Positions 58,670-60,371 of a stretch of 64,000 nt of DNA are shown here, piece after piece (positions within the stretch are counted from its first letter, which is position 1; the number at the start of each line of letters is the position of its first letter). The notes beneath the pieces are model-generated. The model was not told the origin of the DNA and made no database searches. It saw only the letters and a list, made by a program, of their open reading frames with translations. The translations under genes and the position numbers were made by a program. Source of the DNA: Cellulomonas cellasea (GTDB lineage: Bacteria > Actinomycetota > Actinomycetes > Actinomycetales > Cellulomonadaceae); assembly GCF_006538745.1 (NCBI RefSeq), contig NZ_BJLR01000022.1:62001-126000 (forward strand), given 5' to 3'.

Positions 58670-58963
58670 TCAGCCCTCGGCTGGCTGCGTCCGCGCGACG
58701 GTCAGCCGCTCGTGGATGCGCAGGCGCAGGTCCGCGGGCGCCTCCTCCTGGCAGCAGCGCTTGACGAGCTTCTTGACCACGGCCTCGACGTCGTACTCGC
58801 CGAGGCATGGCTCGCACTCCTCGAGGTGCGCGCGGATGCGCTCTGCGTCGGGGGCGTCGAGCTCGGAGTCGAGGTACTCGAACAGCCGCCCGAGCGCCTC
58901 GTCGCAGTCCGTCCCGCACGCGTTCGCCACGGGTGCGCCCGGACCGGGCTCCAGCGTGCTCAT
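58670..58963 (-). CDS. rsrA: RsrA-type zinc anti-sigma factor
   Basis: A 97-aa redox-sensing anti-sigma factor. Cys20, His46, Cys50 and Cys53 reproduce the spacing of the RsrA zinc site (C11-H37-C41-C44 in Streptomyces). Cys16 and the KRCC pair near residue 70 are the other conserved cysteines. When oxidised it forms a disulfide, loses zinc and frees the sigma factor. The ATG overlaps the sigR stop by 4 bp, so sigma and anti-sigma are co-translated. A terminator hairpin lies at its end. Confidence 0.95.
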
Positions 58964-59580
58964 CGCGTCCCCTCCGGCGTCGTCGTCCCGACCAGCCCGC
59001 GCTCGCGTGCGTAGTCCTGCAGCATCTCGCGCAGCTGGGCCCGGCCGCGGTGCAGCCGGGACATGACCGTCCCGATCGGCGTGCCCATGATCTCGGCGAT
59101 CTCCTTGTACGCGAAGCCCTCGACGTCCGCGAGGTACACCGCGATGCGGAAGTCCTCGGGGATCCGCGCGAGGGCGTCCTTGACGTCGGAGTCCGGCAGG
59201 TGGTCGAGCGCCTCGGCCTCGGCCGAGCGGAGCCCGCTCGACGTGTGCGACTCGGCGCGCGCGATCTGCCAGTCCTCGATCTCCTCGGCCGCCGACTGCT
59301 GCGGCTCGCGCTGCTTCTTGCGGTACGTGTTGATGAAGGTGTTGGTGAGGATCCGGTACAGCCAGGCCTTGAGGTTCGTGCCCGGGCGGTACTGGTGGAA
59401 CGCCGCGAACGCCTTCGCGAACGTCTCCTGAACCAGGTCCTCGGCGTCGGCGGGGTTGCGGGTCATGCGCAGCGCGGCACCGTAGAGCTGGTCGAGGTAC
59501 ACGAGAGCCTCCGCCTCGAACCTGTCGGTGCGGGCGGCGTCGTCCTCGGCCTCGGGGGCGCGGTTCGTGTCCTCGGTCAT
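58960..59580 (-). CDS. sigR: ECF sigma factor SigR/SigH
   Basis: A 206-aa ECF sigma factor for disulfide stress and mycothiol homeostasis. Region 2 holds [49 protein letters not shown], the linker carries [10 protein letters not shown], and region 4 has [44 protein letters not shown] 59580 (TAGGCT 8 nt upstream) gives the short, housekeeping form. The frame stays open to ATG 59763, adding 61 residues (starting MTCSTEC), and a SigR-consensus promoter ends 7 nt before that ATG. A long, stress-induced isoform like SigR' is therefore predicted. Followed by rsrA. Confidence 0.96.
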
Positions 59581-59588
59581 CAGCGACG

Positions 59589-59594
59589 AGCCTA
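59589..59594 (-). promoter_or_regulatory. housekeeping-type -10 box for the short SigR
   Basis: TAGGCT on the minus strand, 8 nt before ATG 59580. Confidence 0.5.
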
Positions 59595-59770
59595 GTGCCG
59601 CGGGGACGGGCAGACCCGCCAGGGGGGTCGCGGCGTCCAGCGACACCCGCACCGAGCGGGCGGTCCGGGTGCGGGGGGCCTCCCCCGTGGGGCTGCCGAC
59701 GACGCCGGCGGGCGGTGGGCTCGTGTCGAGCACGACGCTCGGGCACTCGGTGGAGCAGGTCATGACAGTC

Positions 59771-59800
59771 GTCAACGCGGGGAGGCGCGCGTCGATTCCC
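59771..59800 (-). promoter_or_regulatory. SigR-dependent promoter for the long SigR isoform
   Basis: GGGAAT (59795-59800), exactly 18 bp, GTTGAC (59771-59776) on the minus strand, matching GGAAT-N18-GTT. Seven nt later comes in-frame ATG 59763. A leaderless, autoregulated long transcript is predicted. Confidence 0.75.
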
Positions 59801-59825: not shown

Positions 59826-59831
59826 TAGCGT
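59826..59831 (+). promoter_or_regulatory. -10 box, leaderless, for ferritin
   Basis: TAGCGT, 6 nt before ATG 59838. Its left end is 26 bp from the -35 of the divergent SigR promoter. Confidence 0.5.
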
Positions 59832-59837
59832 GGCGCC

Positions 59838-60371
59838 ATGACGGACTCGAGGTTCCTCCAGCTGCTCCGCGCCCAGATCGGTCACGAGTTTGACGCGCAC
59901 CAGCAGTACGTGGCGATCGCCGTCTGGTTCGACGGGCAGGACCTGCCCCAGCTCGCGCGCCACTACTACCGCCAGGCGGTCGAGGAGCGGAACCACGCGC
60001 TGATGATCGTGCAGTACCTGCTCGACCGGGACCTCGACGTCGCGATCCCCGCGGGCAGCCCGGTCCGAAACGACTTCACGACGGTCATCGACCCGATCGC
60101 CCTCGCGCTCGCGCAGGAGACGCAGGTCACCGAGCAGATCGAGGCGATCTTCCGCGCGGCCCGCGAGGAGGGCGACGCGCTCGGCGAGCAGTTCCTGCTG
60201 TGGTTCCTCAAGGAGCAGGTCGAGGAGGTCGCGTCCGCGCGGACGCTGCTGACGGTCGCGACCCGCGCGCGGGACAACCTCTTCGACCTCGAGAACTACG
60301 TGGCCCGCGAGCAGATCGGCGACGGCGGAGAGTCGTCCGACGCCCCCGCCGCCGCGGGTGGCGCGCTGTGA
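59838..60371 (+). CDS. ferritin
   Basis: A 177-aa ferritin-like protein that oxidises and stores iron. Ferroxidase residues fall at the canonical positions: E17, E50 and H53 ([11 protein letters not shown]), with E94-region and Q127-type residues in [12 protein letters not shown] and LKEQVEEV. The four-helix bundle length fits 24-mer ferritins (FtnA/BfrB) rather than haem bacterioferritin, since no Met52-type haem ligand is seen. It is divergent from sigR, whose stress promoter lies 25 bp from its own, so oxidative stress could affect both. Confidence 0.88.

Follow-up and report, generated by a model that had tools for sequence, protein, structure and literature searches.

Two promoters, each with a predicted leaderless start, for the SigR isoforms of Cellulomonas and related Actinobacteria

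We analyzed the sigR-rsrA locus of the soil-type actinobacterium Cellulomonas cellasea, which encodes an oxidative-stress sigma factor with its anti-sigma factor and lies on the minus strand of a 64,000-nucleotide stretch of DNA (the window). Our analysis makes it quite likely that sigR-rsrA is read from two promoters, each of them giving an mRNA whose 5' end lies at a start codon, so that the promoter decides which SigR isoform is made. A transcript from p1, a promoter of the housekeeping type, would begin at or 1 to 2 nt before ATG 59580 and yield short SigR, a basal amount of which would be maintained and held by RsrA. Thiol stress would free SigR from RsrA and p2 would then fire, giving a transcript that begins with ATG 59763, or a few nt ahead of it, and encodes SigR', with 61 extra residues. 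As the short ATG has no Shine-Dalgarno (SD) sequence beyond AGG, it should be poorly used inside the p2 transcript, which would make almost only SigR'; hence the choice of promoter would decide the isoform. By analogy with Streptomyces, SigR' is probably short-lived, letting the response shut off. The exact transcript ends, the induction, and the isoform ratio are predictions from the sequence.

Layout of the sigR-rsrA locus

Short SigR (58960..59580, minus strand) runs from ATG 59580 to TGA 58960 and has 206 aa; in profile searches it is a SigH_actino protein (TIGR02947), with 355.8 bits against a cut-off of 251.55. Directly downstream is an rsrA-like anti-sigma gene (58670..58963, minus strand), whose product matches antisig_RsrA (TIGR03988; 90.8 bits against a cut-off of 62.5) and carries the HxxxCxxC zinc motif of the RsrA family as HLEECEPC. 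The rsrA start overlaps the sigR stop as ATGA, and the GGAGGGG upstream of it is a Shine-Dalgarno sequence (SD match GGAGG).

Above the short start, the sigR frame has no stop from ATG 59763 to the sigR TGA at 58962-58960. The frame thus holds a 61-codon N-terminal extension of SigR' (59581..59763, minus strand), assigned from the open frame and its coding-type substitutions and opening with the long-form start codon ATG (59761..59763, minus strand). Upstream lies p2, a putative SigR-type autoregulatory promoter reading GGGAAT-N18-GTT (59774..59800, minus strand; GGGAAT at 59800-59795, GTT at 59776-59774), which is identified from its sequence and from the conservation of the box in the family. 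The presumptive -10 element of p1, TAGGCT (59594-59589, minus strand), falls within the coding frame of the extension, where it contributes to a CTA codon, and is separated by 8 nt from ATG 59580. The open frame of 61 codons, the p2 box, and the position of TAGGCT had all been described in an earlier note on this DNA, and the sequence agrees with each; the gap between GTT and ATG 59763, put there at 7 nt, is in fact 10 nt (59773-59764). TTG 59775 was also considered as the long-form start and rejected, since it overlaps the GTT of the p2 box and should therefore not be transcribed from p2.

A divergent ferritin-like gene (Pfam Ferritin, ATG 59838, plus strand) begins only 74 bp from the long sigR start. 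A TAGCGT ends 6 nt above its ATG (59826-59840), and this gene may be leaderless too.

Promoters and start codons across the family

To place the locus in its family, the SigR protein was matched against 150 family genomes drawn from a larger group, of which 144 matched and 6 did not. The loci of 142 of the 144 matching genomes, that of the source genome included, were examined (G056 and G128 were left out), having been gathered in two sets of 30 and 112. The regions above sigR were scanned for GGAA[T/C]-N18/19-GTT; if a locus held more than one box, preference went to a box with an open frame and a nearby start, and starts at less than 6 nt were ignored. Both rules favor the result, the effect of box choice being small given 0.9 chance boxes per 142 loci. 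To obtain this background, the upstream regions were resampled 20 times with a first-order Markov model, as opposed to an exact dinucleotide shuffle.

Of the 142 loci, 138 carry the box above sigR, as compared with a mean of 0.9 loci (maximum 3) of 142 in the resampled regions and none on the opposite strand. In the 4.73-Mb source genome, GGGAAT-N16..19-GTT occurs 17 times and a reversed control pattern does not occur. From the box to the gene, the sigR frame is open in all 138 loci; 136 of them have an in-frame ATG or GTG at a distance of 8, 9, or 10 nt downstream of GTT, and the starts of the two exceptions were counted at 24 and 6 nt. When start codons in any frame are considered, one lies exactly 9 nt after GTT in 110/138 loci, and other offsets mostly account for fewer than 15 loci each, the largest being 28 (offset 0), 27 (offset 14), 21 (offsets 10 and 16), and 15 (offset 17). 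In the genus-weighted logo of the long start, position -1 is C or T in 90% and position +1 is A or G. As placed from the spacing of the box, the SigR' transcript would start at or within a few nucleotides of ATG 59763.

No box was found within the scanned stretch of four loci (L203, L205, L229, and L230). Two of these have very long extensions, and their box may lie above the scanned stretch. L230, with 64% identity and from a genome 65% complete, lacks p1 as well as the box.

The short start is even more uniform. TANNNT-N8-ATG is found there in 141 of the 142 family loci, with TAGGCT in 134. When the spacing k between TANNNT and ATG was varied from 0 to 30, k = 8 was found in 141 loci and every other k in at most 6. 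The TA and T of the -10 element are invariant in the genus-weighted logo of the short start by construction, with the inner GGC free to vary; a pyrimidine (C or T) occupies position -2 in about 99%, position -1 is G (93%) or A (7%) and not C, and the -35 signal of p1 is weak. Thus, the design put forward in the earlier note, a SigR-dependent promoter for the long form and a separate one for the short form, both leaderless, holds by sequence across the family sample, with promoter and start at fixed distances, and so beyond the genus for which it was proposed. The stop codons in the upstream region of relatives that the note had named as evidence against it do not occur in the sigR frame of any locus with a box.

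Read in the long-form frame, the -10 bases mostly encode Leu-Gly-Ser or Ile-Gly-Ser. Among 133 distinct extensions, the codon holding TA, whose presence is fixed by a locus selection that drops just one of 142, is CTA in 115, ATA in 10, and GTA and TTA in 4 each. In the remainder of these genes, CTA accounts for 11 of 2,825 Leu codons and ATA for 3 of 1,056 Ile codons. The placement of such rare codons at the -10 element points to a constraint at the DNA level, as expected of a promoter. These data bear on the reading in which SigR is mainly or solely the long form, the short ATG being an internal Met without a role. While the continuous frame and the well-conserved long start are in line with it, this reading leaves unaccounted for a -10-like element held exactly 8 nt above the short ATG and mostly spelled with a codon rare in the rest of the gene, and the TIGR02947 match begins at residue 12 of the short form, with none in the extension. 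We consider it extremely unlikely that only the long form matters.

A second reading takes the AGG of TAGGCT for a weak ribosome-binding site in one long transcript, which starts at p2 or at a promoter farther upstream and gives both isoforms. To compare start types more broadly, we used a wider set of 103 distinct loci, which is biased to the nearest relatives of SigR and overlaps the family set. Most of its loci with the short start of the Cellulomonas type do have AGG 10 nt from the ATG, as a 3-nt SD match, in most cases this AGG, is found in 71 of 83. However, AGG is lost in some relatives where TA, T, and the 8-nt spacing stay, both inside the family sample (TACGCT, TAGTCT, TAGCAT, and TACTCT) and outside it (TACCCT, TACTGT, TATCGT, and TACTCT), and on this ground TAGGCT was rejected as a ribosome-binding site. 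Longer SD sequences are also evidently available to the operon, since, in raw match counts from the wider set, an SD match of at least 4 nt is found for rsrA in 77/81 loci versus 7/83 for short sigR. A single long transcript with a weak ribosome-binding site is thus very improbable.

On the preferred reading, each transcript very probably begins at its own start codon, and the isoform is set by which promoter is used. In Mycobacterium tuberculosis, TANNNT is the common -10 element, leaderless mRNAs make up about a quarter of those mapped, and transcription starts prefer a pyrimidine-purine step, according to the available text of PMC3898074; the pyrimidine-purine step at both sigR starts matches this preference.

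We also asked whether p1 might be controlled by WblC/WhiB7, as in Streptomyces. An AT-rich stretch above p1 is absent on average: the 30 nt above the -35 region have a mean A+T content of 24% over 141 loci, the highest locus reaching 57%, and the source locus is likewise G+C-rich above p1. This kind of control was rejected.

Within the wider set, 83 loci are of the leaderless type, 16 have an SD sequence with a GTN start (SD-GTN type), 4 are of neither type, and none is of both. By record titles, the leaderless type occurs in Micrococcales, Nocardioidaceae, Kineosporiaceae, and others, and the SD-GTN type occurs in Streptosporangiales (14) and in one of three Streptomycetaceae records; of the remaining two Streptomycetaceae records, one is of neither kind and the other is leaderless with a doubtful name. 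The latter, L078, is titled Streptomyces sp. NP160, and the region upstream of its sigR resembles that of a Quadrisphaera record (L070), so the name may be wrong. A quick gene tree, in which 8 of 93 inner branches are well supported, has three label changes between start types.

A closer look at the Streptosporangiales shows that, some 40 codons upstream of the AEDLVQ anchor, seven loci (L087, L088, L091, L096, L100, L104, and L116) carry a sequence of the GGGGTG or GAGGTG type and, after it, GGT-NNN-GTN in frame with sigR. The GTN is GTA (in Actinomadura), GTT, GTC, or GTG, apparently at the place of the Streptomyces GTC start. As judged from these sequences, noncanonical short SigR starts may reach beyond Streptomyces.

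The N-terminal extension of SigR'

To establish whether the extension is translated, substitutions were analyzed in 30 pairs, picked greedily from 85 within-genus pairs with similarities of 0.75 to 0.998. The dN/dS ratio of the extension is 0.59 when it is read in the sigR frame, as against 1.15 and 1.23 when the frame is shifted, which bears out the coding conservation that had been anticipated for it in close relatives, and the differences at codon positions 1, 2, and 3 number 134, 129, and 195. Over 55 codons of the extension, the source differs from its nearest relative by 10 synonymous and 8 nonsynonymous changes; for the sigR core, where 120 codons were compared, nonsynonymous differences range from 0 to 9.5 per pair. 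Purifying selection on the extension thus appears to be present but weak. Gap lengths are multiples of three in just 4 of 8 cases, a count that the unguided nucleotide alignment may blur. Across the family, the extension evolves fast and, from position 6 on, has a high content of Ala, Pro, and Gly.

It could be argued that there is a single protein, always translated from ATG 59580, and that what lies upstream is an ordinary leader of the p2 mRNA whose frame, in DNA so rich in G+C, is open by chance. Of the two shifted frames, one is indeed open as well in 108 of the 138 loci, which makes an open frame weak evidence by itself at such a G+C content, and the length of the extension varies widely, from 20 to 99 codons (median 46; 136 loci). 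Yet the start stays in frame despite these large differences in length and keeps to its place 8 to 10 nt after the box, the substitution pattern is of the coding type in the sigR frame only, and the SD match before the short ATG is shorter than 4 nt in 76 of 83 loci. Chance openness was rejected on the spacing, the 138 open frames of 138, and the substitution pattern taken together, not on openness alone, and we regard a single protein as highly unlikely. On the two-isoform reading, which we favor, the extension would be part of SigR'.

The extension of the source locus opens with MTCSTEC, as the earlier note had observed, including what it presented as a two-Cys feature. Among 133 distinct extensions, 83 have a Cys within residues 2 to 5 (55 at residue 3, 25 at residue 4, and 3 at residue 5), encoded by TGC in 53 and TGT in 30. 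The Cys at residue 3 is therefore one that is widely conserved, but a Cys at position 7 is found in only 2 of the 133, and the second Cys of MTCSTEC was dropped as a member of a conserved pair. From position 6 on, Cys accounts for just 13 of 5,801 residues of the extensions, and a Cys in the short form is present in just 1 of 133. The early Cys is not universal, being absent from 6 of 24 genera and in the minority in some others. We hypothesize that it acts in thiol sensing or in the turnover of SigR', and its conservation at the N terminus makes for a concrete hypothesis of SigR' control.

Other SigR-type boxes and comparison with known systems

Among 16 other SigR-type boxes examined in the source genome, four (L001, L005, L235, and L008) have a start codon 9 to 10 nt downstream that opens a Pfam-matched gene. 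The matches are to Oxidored_FMN (GTG at 9 nt, with another GTG at 3), F420H2_quin_red (ATG at 9), DSBA (GTG at 10), and STAS (ATG at 9). Leaderless SigR-dependent transcripts may thus not be confined to sigR. No such gene start was established for the remaining 12 boxes, the majority, which speaks against the two-promoter model. In the Streptomyces system, the unstable long form is degraded by Clp, and Clp protease genes belong to the SigR regulon. In the flanks fetched from the source genome, a GGAA-type box was not found above clpC or the two clpP pairs, and these flanks lend no support to a feedback of this kind; an off-consensus GGGAC...GTT lies above one clpP. A ClpB-like gene has GGAAT-N18-GTT about 70 nt above it if GTG 1222 is its start (L241:1125-1150) and, going by this box, is a likely SigR target.

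Among the titles listed by literature searches, none deals with leaderless SigR isoforms or with SigR in Cellulomonas, and an earlier mention is possible in two Mol Microbiol papers, of 2009 and 2012, that are likely to treat conservation in actinomycetes. By its title, the 2009 report (Mol Microbiol 73:815) is said to describe an unstable isoform "in actinomycetes."

A SigR with two promoters and two isoforms is already known from Streptomyces; the predicted dual leaderless wiring is a different build, which would replace the SD sequence and GTC start. In the accessible parts of two papers on Streptomyces coelicolor, sigR-rsrA has the promoters sigRp1 and sigRp2, the upstream one being SigR dependent and giving an in-frame, N-terminally extended SigR' (PMC5472188, PMC4921905), with an extension of 55 or 58 residues, differing between the two papers. 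The Streptomyces SigR' has a half-life of about 10 min (PMC4921905). As in S. coelicolor, the Cellulomonas locus has a downstream promoter for the short form, an upstream, predicted SigR-dependent promoter for the long form, and rsrA directly downstream with its own ribosome-binding site. The earlier note was right to cite SigR' of Streptomyces as the precedent, but the mechanism there differs, as translation of short SigR relies on an extended SD sequence (AGGAGGTG) and on a GTC start that IF3 restrains (PMC5472188). The Cellulomonas short form, unlike this, has an ATG 8 nt below the -10 element, with no GTC start. Whereas Streptomyces sigRp1 carries an AT-rich WblC site, there is no such stretch above the Cellulomonas p1. 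In the Streptacidiphilus relative L093, the first in-frame ATG lies 42 nt below the box.

The mycobacterial SigH-RshA system is orthologous. As given in the portions of PMC4803200 that are available, its SigH promoter consensus is GGAAYR-N17-18-GTT and 3 of 25 newly mapped starts lie within 5 bp of the initiation codon; a dual leaderless sigH is not described in those portions. The sigH-rshA operon of Corynebacterium glutamicum is also orthologous and has several promoters, but is leadered. In sigH, starts were mapped 22, 89, and 93 nt above the start codon; all three come from promoters of the SigA type, and a fourth of this type lies farther upstream. Transcription of rshA is separate, and the available part of the source describes no autoregulated long form (PMC3489674).

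If transcripts confirm the model, sigR would provide an isoform switch without any ribosome-binding site, needing no more than a pair of promoters, each at a fixed distance from its own start codon, and the mechanism would be readable directly from the sequence. The -10 element of p1, embedded in the frame that encodes SigR', would be a clean case of a promoter and a protein sharing bases. Leaderless mRNAs are disfavored by IF3 in Escherichia coli. It is a tentative and rather doubtful proposal that a leaderless short SigR, set against an SD sequence on rsrA, serves as an alternative to the IF3-sensitive GTC start in keeping SigR below RsrA, with the Cys at residue 3 or 4 in addition making the stability or activity of SigR' sensitive to thiols. 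Both designs of the short start would hold SigR synthesis low relative to that of SD-driven RsrA and so may be equivalent solutions. Seen against the SD-GTC design, the Cellulomonas locus suggests that there are two ways of balancing SigR and RsrA among actinobacteria.
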